A DNA stretch of 64,000 nt. Source: Tubulanus polymorphus (Eukaryota; Nemertea; Palaeonemertea; Tubulaniformes; Tubulanidae). The notes under the pieces were generated by a model. It saw only the letters and a list, made by a program, of their open reading frames with translations, was not told where the DNA came from and did not search any database. Both the position numbers and the translations under genes were made by a program. Positions 35,044 through 63,411 of the stretch are shown piece after piece (position 1 is the stretch's first letter; each line of letters begins with the position of its first letter). The stretch is from contig NC_134025.1 in NCBI RefSeq assembly GCF_964204645.1, forward strand, positions 25,822,001 to 25,886,000, written 5' to 3'.

Positions 35044-38000
35044 ATGGATACCCAAAGTTTAGCGATAGGTGGAGCAGTGTTTGTCATTTCTGCTGTTGTC
35101 ATTTACTTAATTTCTGTTTGTGGTATGCGGGAGCGTACTTATGAGGAAGTTATGGCGGAACAACGAAGGTGGCAAGAGGCTCAAATCAAAAAACCAACGA
35201 AAACAGACAAGAAGGACAAGGTGAAAAAGAAAATCAAGAAGAAGGAAAAGGCTGCGACTAAGGACGAGAAAGGAGAGAACAAAGAGGAAAGTGAAGAGAA
35301 AGAAGAAAAGGTGGAAAAGATCGAAGAAGCACCAGTTCTTGCTAAAGAAGAAAAGATGCTCGAAATCGAACCTGATCCAGAAATTATCGATTCCGAAGCT
35401 CCCCCGAAACAACCGAAGGGAAAGAAATCTAAGAAAACCAAATCCATCTTACATAACCGCTCGGAGCGTTCGCCGAGTACAGATGCTGTTGATGTTCCGG
35501 AAACCTTTCACCCGAAACAGATGCCGAAGGACGAGCTGGAAATCAAATACAGTCACGTATCGACCAGTGAAAGTGATTCCTCTCCAGCGATCCGTCATAG
35601 AAAAGGCAAGAAAGGCAAGGATAAATCTGGTTCATCTAACAACAGCCAGGAGGTCAGACATGAGACAAAGGCCGAGATATTGGCCGAGGCTGAGGTTGAA
35701 GAAGTAATTCATGTTACTGAATCTACTTATGCGACTGCCGAGGCCCCTCCTCAAATGGAAGCACCAGTCAAAGAAAAAAGAAAAAACAAGAAAAATGAAG
35801 GTAGGAGATGATTTTTTCTCACTATTTAGCCTATTTGATTCAAAACACAGTTAAATTTTGGGACGACCAGTTCAAAATCTAAGCTTTATGATAAAGGGTG
35901 AAAATAGCAATTTTTTTCTGATCTCCATAGCTTGTGTAGTACTTATACAAGGCCCTCGATGAAAGAAAACAAGTTTTGACATTCTAGACCACCAATTAAT
36001 GATATCAATTCCTTTCTATTGAAAATTTGACACAATGCTCTTCCGTCTATCAATCACTTAGATCATAGTCAGTCGCTGGTCGGCCCATTTCAAGTTATAC
36101 GACAAGATAGCGAGTTCATAGTTATTGATCATATGTCAGTAATAAATTGAATTGTATCTTTTGTCTGTCTTCGTAATCATTACTTTAAGTTATTTCTTTG
36201 TGATAAAGTTCTTGATACATCGAAAAATATATTGATATGGGTATAAGGCCTTAAGTTCAACACGTAGACTTTTTGCTTGTTGTTATATTCAGACAATTAT
36301 TGGGTGAATGTATATTTTCTTGATCTTTTAATGACTTGCACATGATCCATAGATATGTGTGGGGGCTCTATTCATTTGTTTTAGTTTGATATAGCCTATA
36401 GGCTTAGTCTGTATGTATGTGTGAGAGCTATTCAACAGCTGGTTGGAGTCATTGACAAAAAAAGAATATATATAATAATCAATAGCCTCTGAGCGTCATC
36501 ATATGGTGTTGGTGATACCACACTCGTTCTGAGGATCAATGCCTCGAATCTAGATATAAAACACTGTCCACGGATATTTCACCTAACAGATGCTTATTTC
36601 ATTTAGTCACTTCTATAAGATGTGTTTCATTCGGCCCTTCTCATTCATCTGAACTGGTGAAATATGAAATTATGCTATGGTCTGAATATTATAATATTTT
36701 ACCCTTTAATGACCCTTTAATTTGCTATCACTGAGTGAAGAAAATGATTCATGGAACAACATATTTTGCGGGAAGAAATGTTTATAAAAATCCCATATAG
36801 CGGGTATAGATGTCAAATATTTCATTTCATTATACATTTTCGTCATCAGATTATCATATCGAATGATTCCAGGTTTGAACGTTGAAGAAGCAACCGATAC
36901 AAATGATCTTTTGAACATCATTAAAAATGCTCCTCTTACTGAAATGGAAGTACAGACTCTGATTGACATTCTTTTGGCTAAAGGAGGACGTGCAGAATGG
37001 AATAAGGTGAGCTTGCCCACATTTTCATTCGCACATATAGAATTTATTAGCAGTGGAATCAGTAACACTTCCATATCTCTTACGTGTTGCTAAATACCCA
37101 GTAGATCATACTTTTTGTCTTTTTCACAGAAATCCCAGAAGACTGATCCAGTTTACATCTTGAAAAAACAATTGGAAGACAAAGAAAAGTCACTTCAGGA
37201 AGGTATATAACCGGCGGCTTGTTTGATGTCTGTGTTTGATAGGTATCATGTTTCAAATTTGGAAAATTGTTTTTCAGAGCAACAGTTGGCCATGTCGGCA
37301 AATTCTCGTATCAAGGAGCTGCGCCAAGAGCTATCCCAAGAGAAATCTCGATACAGCCAAATAGAGAAATCGTCGCAGGAAAAAATCGCTGACCAACAGA
37401 AAGAGATCCAGGCTTTACATTCGCGCATGCAACAAACTCATGAACAGCATCGTTTGGAAATGTCACAGGTTCGGGGCAAAATGGACGGTCAGATGATGGG
37501 CGATGGACAGGCTCAGATCATTCAAAGACTGAGCGAGGAAAATAAGCAATTGAAAGAAGCCGCTGCCAAAGCACAGTTAGTTTTTGAAAATCTTAGCTCT
37601 CAATTATAGCCTAACCATTAAAAAAACGAACAAACTAATTTTCTCATCTCTTTTGCGATGATCTCCTATAGAATGAATGCTATGCCTGCAGTAGACGTGG
37701 CCAGTTTACAACAACAACTGAAAATTGTCAACACTGAATTGTCTAACAACGTGATGAAATTGAACACTAGCGAAAACGCGAAAAGGTCAATGGAACAGAA
37801 ACTGCACAGATATGAGGAACAGATTAGAAGCCTTGATAATACAAAGGTAAAACTAGTTCTAATTTCTACTTATGATGTCTTAAATCAAAATCCATATTGA
37901 TGGGTGAGTATAAATTTGTATTTCTGATTCTGATTATAGAAAGATTCCGAATCTGTTTTGACCCGCAAACTGAATGAGGTAAGCGAAGAACTCCGAAAAT

Positions 38001-41000
38001 CTGAGGCTCGGGTTGGAGCTTTGAAGAAAGATTATGACCGTGCTAATACTAGCAAAGACATGGCTGAAACTGAGTTCGCGAATTTGAAAAATAAGTTCCA
38101 ACAATTAGAACACTCCTCAACCGATAAATCAGGCCAGGTGAAGTCAATGGAAAACCAAATTAAAATTTTGGAAGCTAAAGTGCAGGTAATTGAATTTGTT
38201 TTGAAGTGAGAGTTTATTAGAGCATAGTGCCGATAAAGACTAGAAATGTTTACGTATGATATTTTGATGTATGATTAGGAGGCAACCTCGCAACGTCAAG
38301 ATTTAGAAACTCGCATTACTGTCATCTCAAAGGATATCGAATGCAGAGATCAAGAATTAAAGTCTGTGAAAGAGGAGAATACATTGTTGGCAACTCAGTT
38401 ACAGACTACAAAAGAACGTCAGTCTGGCGAAGGTCAAGAAGCTCCTAGTAATCAACCTACTGGCGCTGTAAATGGTCATGTTACCAACGAGAAAGATATT
38501 CCGAAAGTATCAGTTACTGAACATGAAAAAATGTAAGTTTGCGTAAATCCAAGATTCTTTTTAAAGGGATGGGGGTAATCGACTTGTTGTTTGAGTCGGA
38601 ATCAATAAATGAATTCTCTATTTTTCGACAGAGTTGGTCAGAAAGCGGAAGAGGTCTCAAAGTTGGAGTCAGATTTATCAGCAAAAATAGAAGAAATAAA
38701 GCGTTTATCAGACGATCTAGAAAACCAGAAAAAGAAAAATAATGTGAGTACCAGTAGATTGTGATGAACGAGATGACGCTTTTCTCAGGTCTTCTGTTAA
38801 GTATCGGATTAACAAAGGAAAATGTCGAAAGTCATAACTTTGAGATGATATGTTTGGATTTATCTAATTGCTTGACAAGAGACTTCGAGACTTGAGTTTG
38901 GTATTCGCTAATTATTCTGTTATTCTAACCAAATTTTTCAGTCTGTGCAATTAACTTCATGTTTACGCTTAAGTGAGGGTAAATGAGTGCAGCAGTGGTG
39001 TCACGGTGGTTTATGTAAATAAATAAACCCCTTTGATCTGAGTGTAGTATAGAATGTTGAGTGTATGAATGAATGAAATATTCCTATATGTATTTATGTA
39101 CTACAATAGTCTAGTTAATCATTTAGAAATGTACACACATAGACAGTAGATTTAACCCTTTAGCCGCCATTACTTCTATTAGCTTCTTGAGAAAAAAATT
39201 ACATACCGGTAATCATAAGATATATATTATATTAAGAAAAATGAATTAGATTGTTTTCAAGCAATTTTCATCGTTTCGATCTGATTTCTTTTTTTTTTGG
39301 TAAAATGTTCTCCATTGTTTGGCAATCTTCCGTCGGTTCTTGATTTAGGCATTACGCGAGAAAAATTGGAAAGCCATGGATGCGTTATCGCAGGCTGAAA
39401 AACGCGCTGAAGAATCGCCGAAAATTCAACAGCAACTCGAACAAAAAGAGAGCGATCTTAACCAGCTAAGGGAGCACATTCAGAGATTAAAACGTGAAAA
39501 TAATGTAAGAGTTCGTCTGCGTTTTGTCTGCTTGCTTTTTCATCGTCGCACATTCATCCTGTCATTATCAGGCAGACATCATAAATTCATTGTTGTTATA
39601 TTTGTGTCGATACTGTGTTAACGGCGTGAATTTGTCAATTAAACTGGATATATTATCGTTATTATGTCGTAAATTAAGTAACGAGCCTCCTTAGAATATC
39701 CTAGAATGGTTTGGTGAATGAATGTAGTATGAATGAATGTTTCGTTCAGAGCAGTTTATGCTTCGGTATCGGCTTTCTTCGCTCTGTCCGTTTTGGTGGC
39801 TTCAATTTTGACCTTATTCTTATTTACTGACCGTATTGAATTATTTCTTCCTTTCAAATTTCGATCTGAAACAGGGCCCAGTCAATTTCAGATGAATCAT
39901 TATTACCCGCATGTCGTCTTCATCCTGACTTTTATTTCCTAATTGATATAAAAAGTGTAAATATATACAATGGTTGAATATCTATTTCTAAATGGAATTT
40001 TATTTGTAGGAGCTGTCTGAACAGCATCGTCAAACCATGCTCGATTTAGAATCAGTGTCCAGTTCTCACCAACAAGTCACTGATATGGAACAGCAATTAG
40101 CTAAAAGTAAATTAGACGTAGATCAGTTACGTCAAGAACTGGAAAATAAACATAAAGAAAATGAAGTAAGCAGGCATCGTTTTACTCACTCCTTTAACTA
40201 TGAACTCGGTTTCCCAGCTTATCGATCATATATCAGAATTCCACTATTAAATATTGGCTATATCGATGACCAATTTGCTGGTTAACTTTGTTGTAACATT
40301 GGTATGTGTTTGCTTTGCTTCTTACGGTAATATATTTCAATTGATGAGTTAGCTGGTTCACCAATTATCTTATATTTTGGTAAACTTGGGTAAACTCGTA
40401 TTGAACCACTAACTAACCGCATGATATTATATCTCGGGCTTATTTTCAGTGTTCTATTGTTAAAATGCTTGCTTAACGTTATATTTGGCGCGTCGGAAGT
40501 TTTAACCGAGACAATTAATTTGATACATGTATATATGAGTTAATTTATTTTAAAAATTGTTCAATTTATTCGAAGCCTCGCTGAAGGGCATGTGGTCCAT
40601 GGATCTATGAATTTCTAATTAAATCCGTTTCATTCATGGATGATTAGCTACCAGTTTCTAACATGTATTCACTGATATCCTATTCAACAGCTATCGATTG
40701 AAGATGATGCACATTGTTCCTAGTGTATTGCGCCTATAGTTTTTAGCTGTCAAAATGGATTTTAGTTTCGTAAATATTTCTATCGATTGTGAATTTTGAG
40801 CAACATTAATAGTGGCAGATGGGTCTATGCACATGTTGCACCCACTAACATTTTCAGACACATTTAATACAGACGATGATTTTCTCATTTTAGTAGTGTA
40901 GATAATTTTTCCCCCTTTTTTGGTGAACTGCATAATAGTTAAACTATCTATATCCAGAGCTGCCAACTGATTCCCAGTTAGCCTGAAGAATATCGATTTT

Positions 41001-44000
41001 ATATGTTCAGCGTATAACTGAAAAGAATCGATTGACTGTCCCTTGATTACCGATTGAGAATCTTCCATATTTCAACTTGGTACTGATTCAACTCGACATA
41101 AACGGCATGTATAAGTTGGCAGCTCTTTCCCTTCCTAATCCTTTGAAGTCTTAATTATAAACTAGTACCATATATCTGATACCTCTTGCCGTGGCTGTTG
41201 ACTGCATGTAATTGCTGGAACCCTCGGATATTTCTTAAATCTTCCGTTCAGCTTCAGTTTAGTAGTATCAATGTTGTCGTCGCACGCTATTCGGTGTTTC
41301 ATTTTGTTTTTCCGTTGTAGGAGCTATTGTTAGTCGTAGATGAATATGATTGTTTAAATAAAACTCACTTACTTGTTAACGCTGTGCAACATGAACTAGA
41401 TGAGACGCATTCTGAATTACGTGACATCCAAAAAGACATGCAAGGCTGCTGCGATAAAGAAAGCTTTGTAAGGATAAGCATGTAGCATGTATCCTGCACT
41501 GAAACAGCTTTCATAACGTGTTAACGCAATAGCACTAGCGTACATTCACATATAGCCTACGTTAGCATGTCATATAGAATTAAAACACATTTGTGATATG
41601 ATTAGATTAATTTTAAGTTGGAATATTAAATTTCATCGCACGAATTATGAATTTGGAATTCATTTAATATTATCGATAAAGAACTTAATTTAAAAGATTA
41701 AAAAATGCATAAGGTTGTGAACGGTAGTTGTTAAAGCGTAGAACATTTTTCTGTGCATGTGTAATTAATTCTCTGCTCTGACTAGTAGTTAACATTTCTA
41801 ATCCTCCAGGAAATGTCCGAAAAGTTCCAGCAATTATCCGCTCAGTTAACATCTCTGACCCAGTCCCATGACAAGGTGACAGATCTCCAGCATGATCTAG
41901 CTCAGGCCAAGTCTGAATTGGTTCGACTGCAATTAGAACTGGAAACAAAGACAATGCAAAGCGATGTAAGGCTCCTATCCTATTTATTTATGTATATTTT
42001 CTAGAAGTATACCCTCTCTACTGCTGACCCATTGATTTGTCTTGTTCGTGCTTAGTACTTTTTCACTTCTCGGTCCTCTGGATTGTGGGTTGAGGTTTGG
42101 ATTTATGATAATATTTTAATGTCGATTCCCTGCTACTACCCCGATACTAAAAAGCACTTTGTGTACTAACTTTGTATACTATCATTGTTTGCCCATATCC
42201 CCAACAAACCATAGTTATCGTCATATTGGAACTTGATACGAAAAAGAGCCACTATTTATTTATGATGTAGGAATTGAACCAGAAGTATTTATATCTACAT
42301 GAAGAGCTCGCCTCGACAAAGTCGGAACGCGCTTCATTCGAGGTTGTCGAAGAGCTGGAACAAATGAAACGAAGCCTCGTCAAGGCTCAAGTTGAAGCGA
42401 AGAGAAAAAGCCATGAATTAAGAGTGAGACATAGGTGTCATACGCATGTTTTATGTTCCATCCACATGGCTTCAGTTTAAGTTTCTGTTCTCAACAGCTG
42501 CTTATGATCAAACAGAGCTTTTTCTGTACATAACGATTTTGATTTTGATTTTAGGTCTCTTATTTAGTTATTTTTACGATTACGAAATGGTTGAAAATTT
42601 GGCTGTTCACATCGATATTGAATTGTTGTTGTAGTTAGATGCAAGATAATTTTGTTGACATATTTTCAGCAATAATTTTTCTAATATAGTTTCAGTTTTT
42701 GTGTCTAAAATTCTCGCTATTTTATATTTTAGGTCAATATTCGATGTTTGATAGTTTCAATATAAGCTTGTCTTAGTTCTTTTTTCACAGATACTTGTTT
42801 TTACTGTTGGCCTATTGGATAACAACTGTAGTCTAGCCTAGATATTCATTTGTTGGCATTCTTCTTACAGGACATAACGGACCAATTCCAGAAACTTTCA
42901 TCTGAACTCGATTCGTTGAGAACTAATGAGTTGAAAAGTTCGGAGTTGCTGAATAAAACCAAAGCCGAACTCGATGACGTTGAAAAACAGCTCGCTGTTA
43001 AGAATGAAGAGAATACTGTAAGAGTATTGAATGCTAACTGTACTTGCCGTAAAGCATGATATAATATTACCTTACTTCATAACAATTTTCTATTCCAATG
43101 ATTTTGATAAGCATTAGGATTAGGTCTATTTATGTATGAAAAGTATTAAGTCCTTACTACATTTGGTTCAGAATGAATTTCGGCTTATATTCCTTGTAGG
43201 AATTGTTAGGCAAATTCCAAGGTTTAACAGTTGACATTGGAACAATGAAAGAGCGAGAAAGTGAAGCTTTTAATGAGTTGAATCGTATAAATACTCAATT
43301 AGAAATGTCTCAGCAACAAATCTCAGCATCGTCCCTGGAAAAATCTGTAAGCAAGGAAAACTGCTACTATGAAGAATTAATCATACGCCTAAAGTGTATA
43401 TACAAGCGGTTATATAAGTACCGCATGAATCTGCACATAGCTTTGAAAGAAAATGGTTTTATTTTAGGAGTTAGATGCAAAATATGAAAAGCTTTTATCT
43501 GAATACAATTCCGTTAAATCAACGAGTGCCGTTGATAATGACAGCGAGCAAAAGATCGCTCAGTTTGAAGAGAAAATTTCCCAATTAGAACAAGTTATAG
43601 CATCGAAAAGTGAAGAAAATGAAGTAAGATTAATTTGGCCGAATTATGATTCGTAGATTTTTCTACAAACGCTGTTCAATATTGTTGTGTATTTGGCAGT
43701 GTCTAATTATGAATGTTTCTGATAACTAGGAATTGAAAGAGAAACATAAAAAATTGATGGATGAGTTGAATGTAATAAATTCAAAGGAAATCGATGTGAA
43801 TGAGATTGAATTGAAGTATCAACAAGCACAAACTGAGTTGGCTTGTGTGAAAGAGACCATTCAAGCGAAATCTCTTGAAAATGAAGTAAGCTTCAATATT
43901 CAGACAATGATATGAACGTGATTGGATCGAATTTGATTGAAAATGAAAATATTATGTTGAACTGACTGGTTTGATTCCCAGAGCAAATTGAAACTGACTG

Positions 44001-47000
44001 TGAACAATGTGTTATTTTTAGGAATTAAGCACAAAATATCAGAATTTGTCCACAGAATTATATACAGTCAAGTCTGACAGCGAAAATAGGGAAGCTGAAC
44101 TAAAGCTTCAACTGCAAGAGTCCCGAGATAAACTCGATAATCAGAGTGAAATAATCTTATCTAAAACCTCTGAAAATGAAGTAAGCCGCTTCTTGAAAAG
44201 AGCTTGCTGAATTGCGGACTTGCTTATAAAGCCAGTGTTTGCTTGAAATAATTTCTCACAGTTTGATTATTAGGATGTATTCGTCAATTATAAATTGAAG
44301 ACAAGTTATGATTTCGGATAAGCTTGCATGATATCCTGCTGTGAAAAATACCCTATAGCTTTTACTAACAGAATGTATATATTTGTGAAAAGTGAATTTT
44401 TGTGCAGACAGAACAATTCTCTGTAGAATAATTTGCATCTTTCTGTCCGCTTATTTAAGTACCGCCATCAATTCAATTTTAGGAGTTTCATGGCCGTTTT
44501 AACAAATTGAGCGCGGAACTCGAACTATTGCTCAAAGCTCAGACAGTGTCTAGTACGAGCGATAACGACAGGGCCGTGAATCGGTTACGCGATGAATTAT
44601 CAGTAACCACTGCTGAAGTGAAAGATCTTCGTTCGCAGTTAATCGCGGTTAAATCTCAACTCGAAGCTGCTGTAAGACGCTCTATATATAGACACACATA
44701 AATATGTCATCTATCATTAATCACGGGGTTGAACTCAATGATTATTTGGATGATGGAATTCTTCTTTAAGGCGATAGTAATTCAATTGAAAAATTGATGG
44801 GGTCTTCGCAAACTGTGCTTTATTGATTTACTGTATGCATGATGATTGCTCTGTCTCTTCGTTTCAAATTGTCATTAATATAATTCAGTTATTTCAGCAA
44901 TCAATTTATTCCGTAATGAAACCCGCTTTATCTGGATCGTACCGATGTAAAAATTCTGTTACCGTAGATCTAAAGATTCTTGAAAGAACAAGTAGACTGT
45001 GAATGTCCTGATTAGATCAATACAGTTGACCGGGCTTAAACCATCATTGCGTATATCGTAGAAACATTTATATTGTATTCCGTATTTCATTAGGTTGAAA
45101 TAGATATCAGTTTAGCTATTACACATCTGATACTGTACTTATATCGTGTGGACATTGCCAGTCCTGGTCATATGATATAAGCGTAGTCTATTGTATTCGA
45201 CATGATTCAGATGAAGTGTGTTTGATTATTTTTGATACCGGTAACCCTCTATCCATAAAGCCCAAGAGCCCACTTAATCCGTATCATTTTTTACCAGTTA
45301 ATGAATATTGTTCTGGATTAAACATTTTCAATAATTTCTTCGATTAAGTGGGTTTGATGTTCAATAACCTTGTTAGTTTGTATTTTCATATTCCAATTGA
45401 TTGCATGTGATTTTCAGATAATCATGATTTTACTAATCGCATTGTATTGCTTTTGCATGCTCTGATCAAGATGAATTCAATTTGTACTTAGTGATTTATA
45501 CTAATGTTAATTTTTCTGAAGCCACTGAATTCAGGGTCAGTAATTTGGAAAAAGGAATTTGATTCTGATATCAGGCTCATAGAAAAATTCTGAGCATGAT
45601 CGTTCCTAACTTAATATATTCTCTCTGGAATGATGGTAGAGAAGTTAAGTGTTCATGGAAAGTATTTCTGTCTAGAACAAAACTCACTCGGCTCTTCTAC
45701 CTATTTCGAAATTCATGATCTTGATTCGAGAATTATCTGTAATAGCGCTGCGTGGTCCTGTGAATGTCATCAGCTGCCTGTATTTTATAGATAATTATTG
45801 GGTTAAAAGACTATGTATGTCTATATGTTATGAAGTTAACTTGAAATTTTACAGGAGCTGAAAGATAAAAATACGAATTTGGCTCGACAACTGAACAGCG
45901 CTAATGAAAACGTACAACAACAGGTCGAAGATGCGCTGAGAGGAGAAAGAGTAAGTATGATCCAGTCAAATTTCAATCTAATTTCTATATTTCTTTATGT
46001 GGGTTTTACTATCACATTCAAACGCTGTCCATCAGTAACATGTCCAGTCTAGAGCATCACTTTGCTCGGTAAATATGTTGATTCCTTGGTCTTCTCACAC
46101 TCTCTCTTACTGTAGATGCAATCATTATTTTTTTTTCTTGTTTAATGAGAATTAACGCACTCTCACTTCTTTCTCTTTACTAGAATATAACAGTAAGTAT
46201 ATGTATATATATATATATATATATAAACCGACCTTGGTGAACTGAACAAAGCGTATTTTTGCAAATATTCATATGGATTTAGTTACTTAATAGAAGCCAC
46301 TTAAGTTACTGTTCTTTTAATTGTTTCGATTCTTGTGTAAATCAATATTGTGGCGAGTTGTATATTGAATAGGAATTCATTTGTCGATTAGAAATTAATT
46401 ACTCGGCATCGATAAATTTGCCGCTCCTTAAAGAAATGCTGCCGATTCGATAACTAAAGTGTACTTGTATGAATATTTCAACTTCAATCTCTCTTCGCAG
46501 CTTAAACGAGGTCAAATAGTAGTGAAGGTACAGGCTCATTATAAACCTGTGTTAGGCTTCATTAATTCATATCTGGCTTATATAACGCGGCTGCTTACTA
46601 CGTATTCATACATCATATTTTCATTCGTAGAATTTCCGCTTATCGTTCGTCGACTGTCCAGTTTTTAAGTGAATAACCTATACATTGTGCGTTGCTATTT
46701 TAACGAAGAATGTAAATTTTGAATATGATGACCCGGGTTAATTCAGTGAGATTAGCAAAAAGTTGATAACTTTGAAAAGTCTTAGACATGCATGAGTGCT
46801 GACTGCTTCAGTATAATACACCTTCATACATATGTTATATCATCAAATATATTATCAATCATGCGGCTAAATATTTTTGTCAAGTCATCGTCCTGCCGAA
46901 CACACCGTGGTATAAACATCTGCTTCAGAACGCAGTTTTACTATAATCTCGTTTTATACTTGCTTTCTATGGTGTCAGCTGTTTCTATTGAATTCATGCT

Positions 47001-50000
47001 TTAACCCTTTATACCGCGCGGTTACACGAACACGCTTTCATGACATGCTGTCCGTTTGCCGATACTATGGATCTTTGAATTAAGTCCTTGGTCTATATAT
47101 TAGTAGTGCTGGCAAAATATAAGATCTTATTCTAATTGGTCTTTAAGTATCTTACATATAATACAGTTCAATTGTAATGAAAGTTATGAAGAAATGATAG
47201 CCCATTCCATAGCACTGGGCTAATTGTGATATGAAACGTTTGATGGTATTTTTTTCTGATATTACAGGAGACTTCGTCGAGCACTCGAGCTGATGACAGC
47301 AAAAAGATTCGCCATAAACTACAAAAAATATTTCCTTCAATATCAACAGATTTACAACAAGATGATGTAAGACCTCTTCGATTTGAGTTATGCTCTGCCT
47401 TTCTCAGTTTACGAGACAATATATGTCACATCGCGTTCATCTTTATTTAGGAGGACGAATGGTGGGAAGAATTTGAGACCAAAGCACAAGAACATATCAA
47501 CCAATATGCTCGAAGACAAGTCAGTACTTCCACATATATATAATACTGAATATTTTTGTACAGAATTTTAACGAAACATTATTTTCTTTTTGTTCAGAGC
47601 GTACAGTTAGAACAGGAATTAACACAGTCTCAAGATGCCCAGGGTAAACTGATATCTCAAGTACAACACTATAAATCAGTACTTTCTGATACAGTAAGTA
47701 TATAATGTCCATTTTCCAAAGAACGATGAATATCTGCTTAGATTTAACTGATCTTCTCATAATTTTTCAGGAGTCAATGTTGAATAAATTACAATCCAGT
47801 GTAGAATCAGAAGAGCAAAAATGGCAGAGTAAATTAACAGGCACGGAGAGTGAATTAACTAAGGTAGTTTCAAAGAATGCTTGCTCATTGAAATGCATAA
47901 CACATGTGATTTTGGAAGTGACATTTTGATTTGTTCTTTTTATTCAGACAAGGGAACAATTTGAAAAACTTACAAATGAACTTAGAAAAGCCAGGGGTGG
48001 AGGAGAAGAGGTAGGTGATCATTATGAATTCTTATAGTCCATTATTATTATGATTTTGTGATTGTTGTGATTTTGCTGTTTTTAAACAATCATGACCATC
48101 AATTGTCGGTACAAATATTCTTTTTGTTAATCTCTATAATGGAGAATAGAAAGCTTAATGAATTTCGTTTATTTAAAGCTGTCTTACAGATATTTTAATT
48201 CGCAATGATAGTCTGTGCATTTAGCTAGTTTGATTTTTTGCCAATTCAATTCTTAATCTCACTATTTTCTAAGAAGCTGCTTTGTTTGCCTTTGCTTTTT
48301 GCAATCATTCTGTTGATTGATTGATTCGCTCAGGATTTGAATGATTTGGATTTCGCGTATCGCTGCGTTGAAAAAAGTCTAACGCATATTGTTGATGAGG
48401 TAATGAACTCATATTCACAAATTTATGGATCACGGGAACTAAAGAATTATCGTTGTTTTCATGCTTTCACTAGAACCTGCTTCGGTTTATAAGAATTCCT
48501 GCAAATCCATTTGTAGTCCCAACTTTGTTGTATGTAGTGTCATAGTGTCTTTTCTTCGGATTACTACTTCCCATTTTCGCTTATTGTATATTTGAAATAT
48601 GAGAATTTTTATGAAGTCTTTGTTATAATAGGCCCTATTCCAATATGGTGATACCTCCTTTATATTTCCAAACCAATATCTCATACAGCTATGAACAATG
48701 GCATTTTAGACTTTTTGAAGACATATTTTACGTTTTTTTCACATCCTGAATATTTTATGTTTAGAGTCTTTCGCAATGCATGATTTGTTCAAACAAGTTT
48801 TGAATAATGTTAATATCTCCTCTTCAGATATTTTTTATTTTCTTGACTTTGACATAATTCGATCTTATCTTTCGTTTTTGAATTTACAGATGGAGGTGAA
48901 AGTTCAGACTCTTGAAACTGATTTGGCCACCGCTGAAAAAGAGAAAGAATCGTTACAAGTAGAATTACATGAGGTATATGGCAACAAATTAAGGATTCTA
49001 GGACAATTGCCCCCCCCCCCCCCCGAATAAAATCCCTTTTGACTTGGATTAACACCACCTAAATACTTTACTTAGAAATTCATTTGTATATCATTGAATA
49101 TAGATTTATAAGATATAGAATTACTGATTTTGTGTGCAGATCAAAAACCTTAAATCAGTCCTTGTGTAATTTTTATTCACTTACCAAATTAAAGGAAACT
49201 TAGTAAGTTCACTTATTAGTGCATTAGTTAACGTTGGCTAATTTATTGGAATTAGTTTTAGTGTTACTTCTGCCAATCAAAAATTTTAAAGCAGTCCTAG
49301 AGTAAATAGCTAGAATTAGTTCACTTTGTCTAATTAATTTGAAGTAAATATCTGTGTTACTTTAAGATTAAAAAGATTTAATTTGGGGGGCAATTGTGCG
49401 GGGGGCAGTTGTCCGGGGGGCAATTGTCCTGATACCCAAATTAAGTGATTGAAATTCATGAACTGTCAGAATTTCGTTCTAATAGCATTGAATTCAACTT
49501 CGTCTTTTTAGTCGCAAGAAATTTTATCCTCCGTCAAGTTGGAATTAGAAAAATTAAAAGAAAGTCTTGCTAGTCAAGAAATTACGAAGAAGGTAAGCGC
49601 TGAAGTTTAGCCATATATTTGGAAGGTTTACTATATAATATACTTGTATACGTATGATGTTGCGGTGCTTTGTGATAGAATGTCCGACAAATGTGCTTGT
49701 GGAGTGGGTTGCAATTATAAAGGTTACGTTGTTATTAGTTGTAGGGTGTTATGTTCCTGTCTTGACATCTATAAATAATCCTTGTTTTTTTTTAAACGAG
49801 TATTAATTCGCCCACAGATTATATTTAGATCACGTTCTTATTTCATATTCTGTGAAATACTAAATTCAGATCGGTATATTTGATATACTCTCTTAGTTAC
49901 AACTAACTCAGTCTTGCTCTCTTATCTGTTCATACATTATCATGTCATATCTGCCTTTCAGCGGGACACAATACGGGCAGAAAGGGTAAGGGTGGATGGC

Positions 50001-53000
50001 TGTTCAGTCAAATGGGATTTTGTTTGTTGTTTTATTTCTAGTTTAACTTTCGTTCTGCTGATGATGTTTCATCTCAGTAGTAGAGAAAGTCTGCTTGCGT
50101 TGGCTTTTCCATTTGTGCTACTTTTTGCGGAATTAAAACGTTGCCTTTGAGGCATCATTAACTGACTCCCAATTATTAACATACTGTAAATTCCCCAGTG
50201 AAATCGTTGCTATTTTCTTGTGTGTTAACAAAAGATAAACATGATTATTATACCTCTGTCCAAAAATGTATAGAAGAAATAACATAAAAACTTAAAATTT
50301 GTCTTGCATGAGTCTTTAGAGACCTAGTCTGAATTATATTCTAGCACCTCCATTGTTTTAAAGCATTGTAGCCGCACAAGCATGATACAGAATACATAAA
50401 CGAAGAATGATAAAAAGGATAGATGTCATATAAGATTCCGTGAAAAGATAGAAAAAATGATTATAGTAAATCTGTAGGCCTATAGAATAATTTAGGAACA
50501 GATATCACTATTGATATGTTCTGGTTATGAGAAAACACTCTTTGAATATGCATATAAAATTTTATATCTGAGAAGTTTATTGTGTAAATAGACAGGAAAT
50601 AGGTGTTGTTTATGATAGATGTTTGTGGCACTTTCATTTCATCTTCTGAAATATCAGATCATAGATAAATATATACCAGTTTATATATATTTTTTATATT
50701 ATGTGTATATCGAGAAAAATACATATGCTATTGTGAAGGATAATTGCTAATCTGGATATTGGGTGTTTAATCAGTGTGTCTTCTAAATCTAATATATCGA
50801 CCATCTGTTTTATCATGACCTTGTATCTGTTCATCTAAAGAAATTCATTGTGAAATAAATCCTCTTGTAACTTATGTTTTATTACATTCTTGTTTCTTAC
50901 AGAAATTAGGAGAGTTAACAGCTGAGTTGGAAAAGGAGAAAAAGGAGAAAGCCGATCTCGCTAGTCAAACTTCTAAATTAAACTCCATTGTAACTACTGG
51001 GCAAGATGCCCTAAAAGCTGAACAGGAGAATGTCAAGCAATTACAAGCTCAACTAGATGAAAAATTGAAGGTAAAAATAGAATCATCTCGTGCTATAAAA
51101 GGAATGCGCATTTCTAATATATCTTCATACAATGTATGATCATGTTCTAAACGCATGATAGCATTTTATCAGTGCATCGTGCCACATTATCAAATTATTG
51201 AATATCTATTGAACTTCCATTGATGAAACATTGCGTCGTACGGTGTAACAAAAATGTACATTCAGTGTTTAACCCTAGTAGTTACTGCTTCGCCATCATT
51301 TCGCACTTATTGATTATGTATATAGACTACTCTAATTTTGCCTTGTTGGAAATGAAAATAAACATTAACTTCCGTTTGAATGATGTCGCTTCGTCAAATA
51401 CGCTTCAAATTAACTTTTATCTGAATATTTTATTTAGATAGCTTACGATTAATACATTTCTGTGTGTTTAGGTGTCTATTAACGCTTATTGATAATGTAG
51501 ATATGTATGTAGATGTTAAAATATCGTTTGTAATCTTTACCAGTCGGAAAAAAAGCCTGAAAAGAAACGAGATTCGCTTCCAAAACTCAGTCTATTTCGG
51601 TCAAAAGCTAAAGACAAAGATAAAGATGAAAAGGTTTAGTATTATCTAATGTTATTTAAAAATAAACCCAGATTTACATTTAAGACATTAGTTACCTTGG
51701 ACGTGGGGTTTATGTTGTAATCGAGGTATAATTCTGGTAATCGGTTTTGATTTTAACATAGTTTGTTTGGCTTTGTTTGGTGTTTCCTTTGATAATATGA
51801 TAAACTCCGGATACGATGTTTGATATATAGCGTGGTTTGAATCTATAACTGGATTTCTAGAGCATGCTGATTTATCTAATATATCTAGTGCTAATCATCT
51901 TTGAAACCAATCAATGAATCAATCATTCATTCATTTATTCATATTCATATGTCTAGTGAGAAACTTCCTCCTTGAATACCTTAATCATCAAATCATCAAA
52001 TCATTTCAACCTCTTGGCTACCTTCACTGACCCATGATTTGCTCAGCCCTGTATCTACTGGTCGGTACAATATACAATAGCAGGGAATAGTCTGCCTCCC
52101 TCTAATTTTGGTTCTCAGCTGTGTAGGCAGTATCGGTAACATGTAGTTACTACCTGTAGGGTGCAGGGTTGGCATTAGGCTATGGTAGTCAGGGGAATTA
52201 TTTGGATCTATTTGTCTATTAGTAATGAACTGTAGAGAAAATGAATGAGATCTGATTGGTCGAAATTTCTCTCATTATCATCACCAAAACGGTGAATGAC
52301 GGCTGAGTTGATCAACACATTATTGCTTCTATCATACGATGCAATATTCTCTCATGATTTTCTCTCTAGGACATACAAAAGTTTGCGAATCTGTCTGATT
52401 GGGAAATTGTCGACCCTTCATCAACTTCAGGTGCAGGGGATCAGGTAGTAGAATATTGGAAACGTAACCAAATTTGACAGTTATTACCTATTATACTAAC
52501 GTTGTTTTTTCGTGATTGTTCCTAACTTCATTTTGATTAACATCACCAATGAAACATGGTTTTATACTCGAGATCTAGAACATAGGACCTTGTTCATTGA
52601 GTTGAACTGGTTCTACCAGTACTTCTCAAAATCTTTTCTGCATATTTCTGTAAACAATAGTTGTTCATGAGAAAATATAAGCATGCATGCCTATTCATTT
52701 CAACTGCTTGGAATCATTAGTTTCATGGACATTATTCATTGTTATTCTTTGCTTCCTTTCCTTCAACCTGAAATATTTAGTTAAAAAAGAAAGTTTTTTT
52801 TTTGTTAGCCAACAGAGTTGTAGTTACGTTTTATTTCATATCAAGCTTGATTTTAGCATTAGAAACTGTTAACAAAGAAAAACATTATTGTTGTTTTGTC
52901 ATCTCGATGATTGTAGATTATTATTAGATAAGCAACCTACTGTATGTCACACATACTCTCCATTCGATTTTTCGATCTGTTATTTCGTTGATTATCAGTA

Positions 53001-55018
53001 GATTTGTCTATGTTATGCATCAGTGTGTTCAAGGATTTTGCATCGAGAAATAAGCTATGAATTTGCATAAACTTGTTTATATTTTCATCTATCAGTGCTT
53101 GTTTACCTAAAATATGCTCACGTGATGTTGAAAAATGGCTGCCATGACAGAAATGTTGAACATGCCGACTGTGTTTTGTTATGCAAATGAATAGGGGATG
53201 ATGTCACAGTCATATCTCTGAGCGTCTGAGCATAAACAATTGCTGATAAGTGATGACAAAAACAAGTTCATGAAAAATCATTCAAAAGTCTTTTTGAACT
53301 AATTGATGCATAAATATCAACTGATTAGGAGAGGTGTCACAAACAGTACCCGTAGATATGTTTTGGAGGATTTTTAATCGTCTAATAAAGTCAATCGGTG
53401 ATTTTCAGAATGGAGTGTCCTCTGATTCCCAAGCAAAAGAAATACAAGAGGTAAGGAAGGAATTTCAAAAACTAGTAAAGCTGATGATAGGCTACTTTCA
53501 TTGGCATTTCTTTAAATGATTTCTAAATATTTTTCATTTCAGTTACGGAATAAATTAGCTGAACAGGAAAAGCAATTAGAAAAAGAAATTGCTAATAATA
53601 AACATTTATCACAAAAACTGGTAAGTAAAATATGTGAATTCTATTAGAAAATTTTAAATTCCTGATTTTGCATTTTCCCCCGTCAAAGCATATAAACCAT
53701 TTTATTAATTTCTGATCAATTATTTACTCATAAAGCCTTGCTAATATTCCTCCTTTGTTTCTTGGTTTCATAAAGAGAATGCTGGTAAACCATAAATTGT
53801 CATGATGCATGTGTGATTTATTTGTTTTCCCGATTTTAAAGTGTATTTTTGTCATTTTGTCACCGCAGTTTCGTAAATTGGCGTCGTAGGGTAATGAGAT
53901 TTTTGATAAGTTAAACAGGAAATGTACTGAATGAATTTACTGGGAGAACAGGCTCATTAAGTCCTTGAACTGTCTGAAACTGCAATAGACCTCCTCTATC
54001 TTACATATCTTCTTATAACCCTGATAGAATCTTGGCTTTGAAAGAAAAAATAGAATGAAAAGTTCAGTAGATTTTCTGTTTGTAAATGTGGAATCAAAGT
54101 CTCGTATGAACAGTATTTAGTACAGTTTGTCTACCTTTATTTATTTATTTGCCTGTGTGGTGTCGTGTGGTTCCTGAATTGATTATTCTACAAACATAAA
54201 TTTGCGCGCATAGATTTTTGAATTTTGATTTTCAATCAAACTGGTTGCTGATTAGACAAAATCTATCATCAATCTGCTGATTCTAAATCTTAAGTATTTA
54301 ATGATATACTTTATTATATTGCCTATGTATACATAGAATGAAAGGACTTCGACAGGTACTTATATCCTGGCTAAAATATCATAGTTCAATTTTCCGCCTT
54401 GAGTTTTCACGCAGTTTTTGGCATTATACGGTGATGTTTCCTTTGGTCTGCGCAGCCATGTTACCTGTTCTGGGACAACATTTTTGGGGTGTATTGTAAA
54501 TTTAGTATTACTGCCATCTAGATATATTATGTTATTATTATGGGAGTAGTTGTTGTGTATGTGTATATGCATTTATTGAGAATGAGCCAGGCTGAAGTTT
54601 TGGTTGAGGATTATTATTATCAGTGAATACGTACTATTTAGAGCAGTGATAATGGTTGATTTAAATTTCAAGGAAAAACCTTTTCATTTTATACTAATTA
54701 TGTCGTAAGAAAACGAATATTACTTTTATTTGCACATTTTAAAGTTTTGTACAGGTGACAGATCATGAAATTTACAGATGTTTCCCTGAATTTGTCATAA
54801 TTCGTACCAAAGAATGGTATAATTTCGTTCACTGCATGCCAAATCGTCAAGTTTTTTTAGGGATTAGGTTGCAATGCTCGCTGAATGTTGATAATATTTC
54901 TTATCGAAATTAAATGAGTTCTGTTCTGCATGATTCGATAATATTTCTTCTTTGTATTGTTGTTTTCCAGGCTGTTTCTGCCGGCGCCCAAAAAGATGAT
55001 AGCGGTACTTCAGTGTAG
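35044..55018 (+). CDS. RRBP1: Ribosome-binding protein 1 / kinectin family ER protein
   Basis: At least 35 coding exons encode about 1680 residues if all are joined. Residues 6-28 form an N-terminal membrane anchor with no cleavable signal. A lysine/glutamate-rich cytosolic segment follows (residues 45-250), and after it over 1300 residues of coiled coil. This is the plan of p180/RRBP1 and kinectin, ER proteins that bind ribosomes, microtubules or kinesin and shape ER sheets. Near the C-terminus TESMLNKLQSSVESEEQKW matches the family, and the end GTSV is as in RRBP1, which favours that name. Vertebrates split the family in two; one pro-orthologue here is possible. The RRBP1 decapeptide repeat is absent. 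From 39349 on every exon is phase 0. The 3' UTR is about 2 kb, with AATAAA at 57003-57008. Confidence 0.85.
40166..41320 (+). other. RRBP1-family intron containing a nested minus-strand frame
   Basis: The 1.15 kb intron has no plus-strand exon that I can recognise. It holds the minus-strand frame 40691-41068, described separately. Confidence 0.6.
40691..41068 (-). CDS. Candidate nested single-exon gene, unknown function
   Basis: An ATG-to-stop frame of 125 codons lies antisense in an intron. The protein is of ordinary composition, with motifs such as LTGNQLAALDIDS and CNMCIDPSA, and no recognised domain, signal or membrane segment. An AATAAA for its strand lies about 142 nt past the stop (40549-40544). 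It is the longest frame of the window not explained by a recognised gene. It could still be chance or a remnant of a mobile element. Confidence 0.25.
   Translation of the reverse strand: MEDSQSVIKGQSIDSFQLYAEHIKSIFFRLTGNQLAALDIDSLTIMQFTKKGGKIIYTTKMRKSSSVLNVSENVSGCNMCIDPSATINVAQNSQSIEIFTKLKSILTAKNYRRNTLGTMCIIFNR
44672..45854 (+). other. Long RRBP1-family intron
   Basis: I see no coding exon, clear repeat or element in this 1.2 kb stretch. Confidence 0.6.
46184..46192 (+). other. Candidate 9 nt microexon
   Basis: A long pyrimidine tract and TTTACTAG precede AATATAACA, which is followed by GTAAGTAT. The insert would be three residues (NIT) in phase 0 between exons 45855-45950 and 47268-47366. 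Confidence 0.4.
46501..46527 (+). other. Candidate 27 nt microexon
   Basis: CTCTCTTCGCAG precedes 27 nt without a stop in phase 0 (LKRGQIVVK), followed by GTACAG. It lies in the same intron as the 9 nt candidate and would add a basic nonapeptide. Confidence 0.35.
49000..49430. mobile_element. TIR element with poly-C/poly-G ends
   Basis: The left end AGGACAATTGCCCCCC (49000 on, 15 C in a row) is the reverse complement of the right end GGGGGGCAATTGTCCT (to 49430). The right end is a run of three 15 bp copies of GGGGGGCARTTGTSC. There is no coding capacity. It lies in an RRBP1-family intron between exons 48890-48973 and 49512-49592. Confidence 0.65.
49593..50902 (+). other. RRBP1-family introns around microexon 49962-49985
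   Basis: Beyond the 24 nt exon (RDTIRAER, phase 0) I see only AT-rich sequence. Confidence 0.55.
51634..53408 (+). other. RRBP1-family introns around exon 52370-52444
   Basis: A short imperfect ATTCA/AATCA repeat is at about 51900-51960. Nothing else is recognised apart from the exon. Confidence 0.55.
53621..54970 (+). other. Last RRBP1-family intron
   Basis: No exon or repeat was recognised. The 70-codon minus-strand frame near 54360 has no support. Confidence 0.55.
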
Positions 55019-57899: not shown

Positions 57900-60800
57900 C
57901 TAATTCCCGGTTTTAGTCGTCAGCAAAAGGTTTATCTGTAATGGAAGAAGAGACTTCAATTAGGAATTTGTCACTGCTCAATAGACATGAATTCATGATG
58001 AAGCACAAGATACCTGGTCATTTGATGGAGCTGCAATTATTAAAACATCATCATCTGCATACTGTTCAATTATCAACGTATTGAGTTGTTGAAAACTTTG
58101 TTGGACATTCAACTGAAAATGAGTTAAAAAGGCAACATAATTACATATTGTTCTTCAATTACCGCACTTCAATTGATTCAGAATCAGGATGAACCGAAAC
58201 CTACTCTGATTGGCTTGAACAGGATGTATTCTGTATCCTTATTGGCTAGGTAAAGATTCATCGCACGAGCAATGATTGGCACTTTAGTTTTCAGCAGTTT
58301 GTAAGTTTCAGCTACGACATCGTGAAGCTTTTCTGGGTTGGCGAAAGGTTGAGATCTCAACGAAACATGAGGCGCATCTTTATCCTTAGCCATTTGCGTG
58401 ATGACAACAGCCTAGAATTACGAAAGAATGCAAATACCGGTAAAACCAGTAAAAATAAAATTCAATAACCTCACCGCATTATTCTCACATGATCGCTGTT
58501 TTTACCTTGTTGAGAAACTGCTGCAGTGGACCTATAAACATATCGGTGCAGGTTCGAATGAATTCCTCGCAACTTTTCTTCAGCTGGTTGTCGACGTCAC
58601 GTTTCGAGTCGACGAGGTGTTCAGTCACCTGTGGCGTTCCTTCTAACAGAAACTGCAGTAAAGCATTCGTCGCATTCATCGCAAATAATTTCGACCGCTT
58701 CTGTATCAGTCCAAAAGCAGCATCTTCAATTAGAATTTGAAAACATATATAAGCCATATGAAAATAATACGATTCTCGATTAAACCTAGACAAGTGCTCT
58801 TTTAAACAAACGGAAGATTTATTCGTTACCTTTGATTTTGCTGAAGTCTAGAGATGTCTCTTTAATGGCGAAGTCGATGTGAAATGGCGCAATTTGTTCT
58901 CTCAGTATGAGCAAATGTTTTATTAGGAATAGCAGCCCATCCACAACAGCCTGAAATAATGACAAATCTCAACTTACTCGGACATGCTATCATTTTGGAA
59001 TACATGGAATCATTTTAATTTTTCTGACTTCCTTCCCCTATCCTTAACTCGGACTCCGTTAACCTCAGACCAATTTTACCAGTCCCAGTTTGTCCGAGCT
59101 AGGTGAGGTTTACTGTATTGATACTTACCTTCTGTTTAGTGATTGTTTGACTGGCAGTGACTAGTGAGTGAACACATAAACTAAGAGCCTCCTGAGACAG
59201 ACCTTGGAATGTAGTTTTCTGCACAAGAGAATAAGATAATAGATATTACATAAAGATGAAAAAGTCGAGTTCGCAGCCTTAATCGTATCGCTTACATCGA
59301 TGCATCTTGAAAGTTTCGAAAGACAAACGAGCGTTCTTCTAACAGTTGGGTACCACATGCCGTGAAGGTCAGCAGGTGACATCGGCATATTACTCACAGA
59401 TCCTCTATCTACAGAAATAATCAAAACATGGTTATTTTCAGCATGGTTTTATCTAAACCAAAGATCGGACTCAAAGTCAGTGATTCGTACTAACCTGATA
59501 CAGGAGACATTATACTAGATCGACCATTCGTTAGATTACTGGTACCATTCTCTTCAAAAACCTCCGGCATTATTTCAGCTGCATTAGCATTGATCGTGGC
59601 AACTTCTTGGCTATTCAGAGACATGTTTGAATTCGTTCTCGAAAGCTGCCTGTCCTTTTTCAAACTCTCAGCGATACTCTTAAACGAAATAAACAGTTAA
59701 CAGAGTAACAAAAAATATCACGGGAATTAGATTCATTCTCAAATTCCTTCCACTATACTGACTTCCATCATCTCAAGTTTTTCAGGATAAGCCAGATCAC
59801 CGGCTGCTGGTTTGTAGCCGAGAATATCACTTTTGATGTAGATGTACGTCCTGTATACGAGCCGTTCTTGAACATCTTCGAGCATTTGTGAGCAGATCGT
59901 TTCGAATGAAGTCAGTTGATTTGCTGGAAATAACAAGAAGAATCTATTTACTAATAGCAATTGAAAATCATTGAACGTAACCTCATCGCTTATGAACACT
60001 TACGATTGTTAGAAACATGTTCATCTAACATTTCAACCTACAAGACAAAGTTCTGGATCTGTCAGTTGACAATTGAAATGCAAATACGGTTTTCATAACA
60101 AAATGAAACGTTTATTCAACAATGAATAAAGAATGGCAAGCATTTATTTGAAAAAATTTATAACCGTAACCATACATGAAGTACATAACTTAAAAGAAAG
60201 ACAAACCCAATATTTCAACTACCTACGTGGGGTAAATAATTCAACCTTGACATAAATATTGAACATATACATCTCGATACATTCATACAGTACCATTAAG
60301 TGAAAGAGGTGGTCAATAAACATAAACAGTGTATTTAACATTTAGTGAGGGCTAGCATGCTGAACTTCACAGGAACGAGTAAACCCAGGGGCATGTGGTA
60401 TTCTGTGCTATAAACTCCAAACTCTAACTAGACGACAATTTGATGAAACTTCCGAAATTTCTCTAGAAATTATTTGGATTTTATGACACATTTGTTCTTA
60501 ACTTTGATTAAAACTAATACCCTAGAAAGATCTGGAGATGGGGACTGACTTTCGCTGTGCATCTGTAAGGATGAGACTCAGATATTTGTAAAGCAAAATC
60601 AGGTAAAAATCAAGTTTCCAAGTTGGAGAAAGACGTCTTTTTATATAAGTGACAGAAAAACAAGAAGTGTTAAGAATTAAGCAAATAAAATGACTTGAAA
60701 ATTACATCAATGTACATGTAATTCTAATAGGTGATTATAACAAAAAAATTAAAAGTGAATTATCAATTGAAATGTAGAACTACAATTACATGTCAACCAC

Positions 60801-63411
60801 CAAATAGACAGGGAGATAGCAATGAGTTTATCTGCAGGTAAATTTAGCTATTTCATTTTCATTGTAAATGTTTATCACTGATTTAATGCGTTTACATATG
60901 GAGTACTTTATCATATACGATTATCTTACCTTCAATATGCTGCATAGTTCTGATAAAGTCTCGAGGTGATTTATATGAATAATTAGAGGACGAAACACAT
61001 CATATAACAGTGTACACAATCGTTGTAACATATGACTGCAAACAGATAATAGGAAAGATTATTCATGGTTTGATGCATAATGGACCGAAACGCTGGTTTT
61101 ATGTAGTTGTCAATCTGCTGTCTGTACCCAATCCTTCAGACGATCCCCATTTGAATGACAAAGTCTAGATGAACATATTTTTAACAAATGATGAATGTCT
61201 GTCTAAAATTCATAGTTAAGACATGACACCCTTATTCATTTTCAAAGAAAAATGTCTGGGGTACTACCACAGGGGGCGATGCCTGGACGAACATGTTTTG
61301 GTAAAATGGTGAATGTCTGTCGAACGCCTGAGGGAGGTGTGTACAGACAGCAGGTTGATAGCTGCATTAATATCGATGTTAACTCACTCTAGCTGCATGG
61401 TATGTTCCGTGAAAAACTGATTATAAAGTTGATATTCGTCTTCACAAACGTGCACCAAAAATGCGCAGCCACTTCGCATCTGACAAGATAAAAGAATAGA
61501 AAATAACCTGTGTATCTTTGCTGAACAATTCCACAGGGTTTTTGGAAATTCTAAGAAGACTCTACACACCAGTGCGCAGTGATCTCTATTGTGTTTAGTA
61601 GCTAATTCAGCGACGGCTTGAGAAATGCTCGGACCGAGTAATGTTTCACGCTGAGAAAAATAACACTGGTGACAATCTGATAATAGCTGTTCATACCTGA
61701 AATAAGCGCCCAATGAAATAAGTAACGAGGGAGGGGCAGCAGATATTTTATGAGGGATGTCTGCCTTTCAGGTGGCAGTAAAAATGAAAGGAGTGATTGT
61801 GGAGAACTATAGAACTACTTACTCTGAGCTGACACCTCTACGTTGTTCCATTTGTTCCATCAGGGCTTTTACCCGAGGAGCGTTTGTCCGAAATTTACCG
61901 TAAAATAATGTGAATGCGTTATCATCCGTACCAGTTATATCCTAGAAATCCGAGATTAAATCAGTTGTCAGGACTGTTAAATTCAAGATTGTACCTACAT
62001 CCTCAGATTGAGCCATCGAGGATTGAATTTACCTTCCGTGGCATCGCGTTTAGAGTGGCATTTTGAAGGATGTTGACGACGTGAGTCTTAATGAGCGTTA
62101 ATGCTTTCGACAGTGACTGCTTGAAACGTGCCAAATATACCGGAGATTCTTTATAACGAGGCTGAAAGTAAGAATCACACAAAAGATCGGTTCCAAATAT
62201 ATCTCATTTCTGGTGTTGTAGTCGTTTACATTGATGGTTACAATGACTTACATTTTTGTTTAGGTAAGCTATGCATTCGTCAATCCTGGATAGAGTCGGT
62301 ACAAATGAATCACTTGTCACAGTCAGCGTAGGTGCACCCAGTCTCTGTGAAAAATACAGCATTTTTTGGTAATTTATTTCTTATTAAATGCCGTGAAAAA
62401 TGATGGAAAGTACCGAGAAGATATCTTACACTGGTAATCTTGTCCAATTCATTAAAATATGACAACTTGTTTTGGATGGTCTCAGCTTGGTTGACTAGTT
62501 TCGTCTGAAACAGAGAATTAAAGGTTTAGACTCGGTACGCAAAATGCTATGAAAAGTATTTCTAACATTTTACCTGTTCATCCAATAAGTGTTCACAAGC
62601 TTCGTGGAGCGCATTCGTTTTCGTTGAAACGTGTACGTATTGATTCATCAGTTCTTGCAGATGATCTAATGCAGTGGTAACTTCATTCAGTATCTGATCG
62701 CACTGCTCTCCGTAATCAGCTAACTGGTCCAAATAAAAACTACAAGAAAAAGGAAAGAGACAAATTAAAATACTTGTTGTTCATAGAGGACAAGCTGTTG
62801 GTCAAATATATATGATCCTACCCGTATTGCAAATCATCTTCAGTTTTCACCTTGTCCTCAATTTTCGAATACCAGAGGAAAAACTGTTGGGCATTCTCTA
62901 TCGTTTGTTCTTCGATTTCTAAAGCAGCGAATCCCTTTGCTATGATATCGTCCTCCGACCCTGTCGTACCACTGGTGGTACTGGAATGTAGATTCGGCAC
63001 ACCAGGAAATTCATCAAGAGGCAACTGAAATTACAATATGCTGAGTTCAAGTACGATATGGATGATTGATTTCCATAGAAAATTAGTTAGAAAGCATAAA
63101 GCACTAATAAAGATTCACTTTCCAGGACCCAGACCTATGCCACAGTACAGAACGTACATTACAGATTGTGATGACATTTGACAGCCAGCAAACCCGGAAG
63201 TAAAAATATTAATATGTTAACAGTTTTCGACTATTAAATGCCCTCATTATGTTACCTCAATTGGTAATTGTTTATTTCCAACGTGACCAGTTAGCTCCAA
63301 GATTCCGTGTCTCTGTCGTTCAGTCAACGGAGCTTTAGGGGACGATTTGGCTTCCCAGGCGGAGAGTTTTTCTCTCAAAACCTTGTTCGAAATTGTAAAC
63401 GTGTCAGCCAT
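57900..63411 (-). CDS. COG3: Conserved oligomeric Golgi complex subunit 3
   Basis: Twenty coding exons give 842 residues (human 828), in frame from end to end. COG3 belongs to lobe A of the COG tether, which captures retrograde vesicles at the Golgi and so maintains glycosylation enzymes. Strong family blocks: [14 protein letters not shown] near the start, [87 protein letters not shown] and [14 protein letters not shown] linker at about residues 490-548 (exon 59678-59495) is poorly conserved, as in other animals. One donor is atypical (GAA|GTCAGT at 59762) but needed for frame. The gene converges on the RRBP1-family gene. Confidence 0.97.
57900..63411 (-). other. COG3 exon map
   Basis: Coding exons from the start: 63411-63256, 63024-62822, 62739-62574, 62504-62430, 62344-62252, 62161-62033, 61941-61823, 61696-61570, 61479-61388, 61035-60930, 60037-60004, 59923-59763, 59678-59495, 59408-59296, 59218-59129, 58950-58830, 58723-58506, 58411-58205, 58112-58014, 57935-57900. 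They sum to 2529 nt. The intron 60929-60038 (0.9 kb) holds nothing recognisable. Confidence 0.88.
61105..61364. mobile_element. Short TIR element in a COG3 intron
   Basis: The left end TCAATCTGCTGTCTGTAC (from 61110) and the right end GTACAGACAGCAGGTTGA (to 61359) are inverted repeats of about 25 bp with few mismatches. Inside are two direct copies of a block ending GTGAATGTCTGTC / GATGAATGTCTGTC (near 61190 and 61310). It has no coding capacity. It fills most of the intron between exons 61479-61388 and 61035-60930. Confidence 0.65.

Follow-up and report, generated by a model that had tools for sequence, protein, structure and literature searches.

Analysis of the window, a 64,000-nucleotide stretch of Tubulanus polymorphus DNA, revealed a complete RRBP1/kinectin-type gene on the forward strand at positions 35044 to 55018. 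The gene model was built by eye and by script and comprises 36 coding exons encoding a predicted protein of 1,689 amino acids. In this model, spliced from the raw sequence, the frame is open from ATG to TAG over 1,689 codons, and every internal junction carries an AG acceptor and a GT donor. Exons of a DNAJC13/RME-8-type gene are positioned upstream on the same strand, at about 21967 to 23047 (PF19432; E values of 1e-27 and 1e-23), and COG3 exons are positioned downstream in the opposite orientation, at 59739 to 61767 on the minus strand (PF20671; E values of 1e-17 and 8e-14). Two further features are encoded on the minus strand: an ankyrin-repeat exon (PF13637) near the left end of the window, at 700 to 951, and a leucine-rich repeat protein at 16710 to 19041, in which 10 LRR_8 stretches precede a Death domain (27 bits; cut-off, 22.6). 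The latter protein is read in two overlapping frames, which probably belong to one gene whose frame changes, or which is spliced, near 17077 to 17102.

Both p180 and kinectin have been placed in Metazoa alone (PMC9804665). Direct reading of the protein deduced from the present gene model revealed one hydrophobic segment at the N terminus, LAIGGAVFVISAVVIYLISVC, followed by a lysine-rich stretch. This stretch resembles the ribosome-receptor KP-rich family PF05104, with a score slightly under the threshold (21.2 bits; cut-off, 25; E value of 6e-4). A genome-wide profile search with PF05104 gave no match anywhere, and the controls were equally silent. The remainder of the protein contains a long coiled coil: a heptad model whose training set came from unrelated coiled coils, mostly myosin, detected periodicity across the exons described below, and the rod gave weak matches to generic coiled-coil families. 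The hydrophobic segment, the KP-type stretch, and the long coiled coil together point to the p180/kinectin family. The decapeptide repeat of RRBP1 (p180) was absent from the basic region of the exon 1 protein on direct reading, and from its sequence the gene could not be assigned to one vertebrate paralogue, kinectin or p180.

Exons 22 to 26 (47268 to 48010, plus strand) encode a conserved core, KIFPSI ... EDEWWEEF ... HYKSVLSDTESML ... SVESEEQKW. A search of the PDB with this core revealed no relative. We take the motif LREKNW, found here in exon 9, to be a core motif of kinectin/p180. Segments of human KTN1 and RRBP1 align to the LREKNW-type motif and to the FPxV...EYKSVLxETE core with E values of about 1e-18, and vertebrate kinectin/p180 core segments match exons 20 to 26 as well as exon 9; these alignments are treated as leads. 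The gene also contains two predicted microexons on the plus strand, exon 21 at 46501 to 46527 (27 nt, 9 codons; LKRGQIVVK) and one at 49962 to 49985 (24 nt; RDTIRAER), and both are candidates for alternative splicing as judged from the sequence.

An earlier note on this DNA had proposed an array of duplicated exons at 39349 to 45950. This interval corresponds exactly to exons 9 to 20, and all 12 exons have an AG acceptor, a GT donor, and phase 0 on both sides. Their lengths, from exon 9 to exon 20, are 52, 52, 49, 52, 51, 49, 49, 52, 52, 53, 63, and 32 codons, so that the proposed clustering at 49 or 52 codons applies to 8 of the 12 exons and fails for the other 4. The proposed common start, E-L-x-x-K-[YFH]-x-x-L, is present in strict form in five exons (13, 15, 16, 17, and 18) and in a looser form in exons 10, 12, 14, 19, and 20. 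The two exceptions are exon 9, which opens with ALREKNWKA, and exon 11, which opens with ELLLVVDEY.

Phase 0 is not restricted to these exons. Introns 8 to 35 (38532 to 54971, plus strand) are 28 consecutive introns that are all in phase 0; introns 1 to 7 have mixed phases (1, 0, 1, 2, 0, 0, and 2). Since phase 0 occurs in every intron from 8 to 35, phase alone is no evidence for an array. The extension of the pattern to position 55018, also proposed in the earlier note, thus stands with respect to phase but not with respect to the repeat, which ends at exon 20: the starts of exons 22 to 35 score at control level. Exon duplication accounts for about a dozen of the 28 phase-0 introns and no more.

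Pairwise alignment of the exon peptides revealed a likeness well above that of other coiled coils, which leaves the duplication proposal standing. For the first 24 residues of exons 10 to 20, the mean pairwise BLOSUM62 score was 15.25. Sets of 11 heptad-shifted segments from the same protein gave a mean of -5.7 (SD, 3.1; maximum, 7.45), and 0 of 3,000 sets reached the observed value. A register-optimised null, drawn from 25 coiled-coil segments of the same genome, mostly myosin, gave a mean of -6.2 and a maximum of 6.9 in 400 trials. When exons were slid against each other over 21 residues, the exon register gave a mean score of 17.3, and the other multiples of seven gave scores from -0.2 to -7. 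The similarity might in principle reflect no homology at all, if coiled-coil composition bias acted together with a preference of splice sites for GAR codons where exons begin; glutamate also opens exons 22, 23, and 25, which lie outside the array, and exon 11 is not a unit. This explanation is hardly credible, because the likeness extends 18 residues inward from the exon start and 30 residues from the exon end and is lost at other heptad registers. For exons 10 and 12 to 18, it is refuted by the heptad-shift test and by the leave-one-out tests described next.

In the leave-one-out tests, each exon was held out in turn, and control windows scoring at least as high as the held-out exon were counted for the start (3,037 windows) and for the last 30 residues (2,777 windows); the controls overlap and the decoys are mostly myosin, and the counts are therefore not strict p values. 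With the start profile, exons 10 and 12 to 20 exceeded all or nearly all controls (0 to 5 of 3,037 as high). With the end profile, exons 9, 10, 12, 14, 16, 17, and 18 recovered their own ends; the support for exons 13, 15, 19, and 20 comes mainly from the start. Local profile HMMs failed to separate the latter four exons from myosin decoys, and their membership therefore depends on the exon-anchored test.

All array exons are on the plus strand. Exons 10 (40010 to 40165), 12 (41810 to 41965), 16 (43468 to 43623), and 17 (43730 to 43885) are units that no control window equalled at either end (0/3037 and 0/2777 each). Further units are exon 13 (42271 to 42423; 2/3037 at the start and 80/2777 at the end), exon 14 (42871 to 43017; 1/3037 and 3/2777), exon 15 (43200 to 43346; 3/3037 and 13/2777), and exon 18 (44022 to 44180; 0/3037 and 1/2777). 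Exon 19 (44483 to 44671) is a unit at its start (5/3037), and its C-terminal half has diverged and its hinge is enlarged (299/2777). Exon 20 (45855 to 45950), opening with ELKDKN, is a partial unit (2/3037 at the start) and is taken as the closing partial copy of the array. Exon 11 (41321 to 41467) lies within the array and is in phase 0 but matches the array profile at neither start nor end (2261/3037 and 1916/2777), and its status as a unit is not demonstrable. It contains a pair of cysteines (QGCCDK), and its donor, TTTGTAAGG, is the weakest in the array, with a score of 2.8.

A profile scan of the gene region detected units only at the array exons and flush with their splice sites, and it revealed no additional unrecognised units in the introns or on the other strand. 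A search of the genome (267.8 Mb, 77 contigs) revealed no second copy or haplotig elsewhere. Exons 10 and 12 to 20 are related beyond coiled-coil bias. Homology over the length of the exon together with a common phase, the mark of tandemly duplicated exons, was found strongly for exons 10 and 12 to 18 and at the starts of exons 19 and 20. The heptad-shift, decoy, and leave-one-out tests thus support the central proposal of the earlier note, in which tandem exon duplication gave a gene of the kinectin type its modular coiled coil.

To estimate the age of the copies, codon positions were compared between the aligned units. Identity at third positions was 0.318, compared to 0.271 for shuffled codons, and identity at second positions was 0.522, compared to 0.348. 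The introns between units share nothing, and the notable DNA repeats are short matches at exon ends. With third positions near saturation and introns without common sequence, the duplications look old, and the copies have been retained at the protein level. A recent duplication is ruled out by the DNA repeats, which are confined to these short matches, and by the codon positions. The near saturation also means that silent sites do not reveal which event came first, which would accommodate a different history: an intronless protein repeat might have arisen first, with introns gained later at the equivalent place in each repeat. We consider this very unlikely, since it would take about 10 independent intron gains, each at one and the same residue and phase, and every unit border is also an exon border.

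Comparison of the units with each other gave indications of how the array may have grown. Exon 9 (39349 to 39504), which begins with ALREKNWKAMDAL, ends with KRENN, and carries the LREKNW motif, fits the array profile over its last 30 residues (0/2777 controls as high). Its N-terminal 20 residues are weakly array-like (95/3037), and averaged over all units its match is modest (78/2500). The first 18 residues are nearest to exon 17, with 7 of 18 identities (0/3090 controls), and then to exon 20 (5/3090). Exon 9 is probably the founder unit, and exon 17 is the array unit nearest to it. A vertebrate LREKNW segment aligns through exon 20 into exons 22 to 26, with the array skipped, which we treat as a lead. 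Likeness between units declines with their separation in the array (Mantel r of -0.37, p of 0.027), and exons 16, 17, and 18 form the tightest group. Such likeness between neighbours is the expectation for serial tandem duplication.

The heptad register was assigned with a seven-state model trained solely on decoy coiled coils (mostly myosin). Most units start at heptad position c and end at position b, whether they have 49 or 52 residues. An internal shift of +4, equivalent to three extra residues, was found in exons 9, 10, 16, and 17 between residues 15 and 24. In the Viterbi path, exons 12, 13, 19, and 20 do not follow the shared register. Alignment of the units showed that they differ in length almost entirely beyond residue 18, in a mid-exon hinge at about residues 18 to 30. 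The earlier suggestion that the array could vary the register of the coiled coil found no support, as most unit boundaries fall in one heptad register whatever the unit length. Because lengths vary in the hinge and boundaries are mostly in register, skipping of a unit should alter the length of the rod and not its register. The units are accordingly read, on this model, as register-neutral: gain or loss of one would keep the register of its neighbours. The whole array comprises 606 amino acids, enough for a helix of about 90 nm at most.

The reading that we favour, and consider likely, is that the rod was lengthened by tandem duplication of the LREKNW exon (now exon 9) and that transcripts normally contain every copy. 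The LREKNW-bearing exon would have been copied repeatedly in tandem together with its flanking phase-0 introns, and 9 or 10 copies (exons 10 and 12 to 19 and the partial exon 20) would persist between exon 9 and the downstream conserved core. The 52-codon units would contain a stammer of three residues, with no net effect on the register at their boundaries. Inclusion of all copies would provide a fixed extension of the rod, and this extension may set the distance of the partner-binding parts from the surface of the rough endoplasmic reticulum (ER).

The same units could also serve as a length tuner, with units skipped tissue by tissue so that the length of the rod varies by about 7 to 8 nm per unit at constant register. 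As had been proposed, skipping or doubling of any unit in frame is permitted by the phase 0-0 arrangement, and boundaries mostly in one register would make skipping tolerable. Some splice sites are weak, namely, the donors of exons 11 (2.8), 13 (4.1), and 15 (4.2) and the acceptors of exons 17 and 19. Isoforms are known in mammals: in trigeminal ganglia of the mouse, Ktn1 isoforms are used differentially (PMC8535871), and one peptide listed from human platelets stems from alternative splicing of KTN1 (PMC2654914); in neither case are the exons placed relative to the present array. Against such tuning, phase 0 is not specific to the array but common to the 28 introns from exon 9 onward, and the strength of the array splice sites is no different from that of the remaining gene (exons 10 to 19; p of 0.91 for donors and 0.65 for acceptors). 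We therefore regard regulated skipping as unlikely.

A mutually exclusive cluster, with one or few units entering each transcript, is another conceivable arrangement, since such clusters typically consist of neighbouring homologous exons similar in length (PMC9741552). Here, unit lengths range from 32 to 63 codons, and all boundaries allow joint inclusion. All introns are long enough for splicing: those between units have at least 106 nt, and elsewhere the gene uses introns of 75 to 99 nt, so a steric block is unlikely. Steric mutual exclusion was rejected on the length of the inter-unit introns, and mutual exclusion in general is highly improbable. Our best guess remains that the array is included constitutively, as a fixed rod extension.

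The deduced protein resembles vertebrate KTN1 and RRBP1 in its putative N-terminal membrane segment, its lysine-rich region, and its long coiled coil. In vertebrate kinectin/p180, a single LREKNW unit presumably runs straight into the core, whereas about 10 more units intervene here. Human KTN1 probably has a tandem repeat of its own, with a period of 66 residues, upstream of LREKNW. This repeat and the present array would differ in place and in period; if the KTN1 repeat is borne out, repeats have extended members of the family at no fewer than two sites. A broader extrapolation, which we put forward as a doubtful one, is that kinectin-family rods were lengthened independently in separate animal lineages by tandem exon duplication at different sites, downstream of LREKNW here and upstream of it in vertebrates, and that splicing, by way of register-neutral units, sets the length of the rod and so the spacing at the rough ER surface in steps of 7 to 8 nm. 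If the array is variably spliced, the cell could adjust how long kinectin is on the rough ER and leave the remainder of the protein unchanged; if it is constitutive, as expected, the array is an ordinary though tidy instance of gene growth by exon duplication.

Tandem exon duplication itself is well known, and a 2002 survey, as cited in PMC9013439, put the share of animal genes with tandemly duplicated exons at about 10%. The open-licence literature yielded no description of a comparable exon array in a kinectin/p180 gene; the new case here is the occurrence of an array in a gene of this type. The array provides a clear and datable case of a coiled-coil rod grown by exon copies, in register at most joints though the lengths are not all multiples of seven. 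As homologous neighbours in one phase, its units resemble the tandemly duplicated exons of DSCAM1, MRP, nebulin, and others. The array is also similar in kind to the tropomyosin genes, a well-known coiled-coil case, which are treated as an instance of tandem exon duplication (PMC9741552) and in which duplicated exons likewise encode the coiled coil. The tropomyosin duplicates, however, are largely swapped by mutually exclusive splicing, whereas the layout of the present array, as predicted from the sequence, favours joint inclusion.
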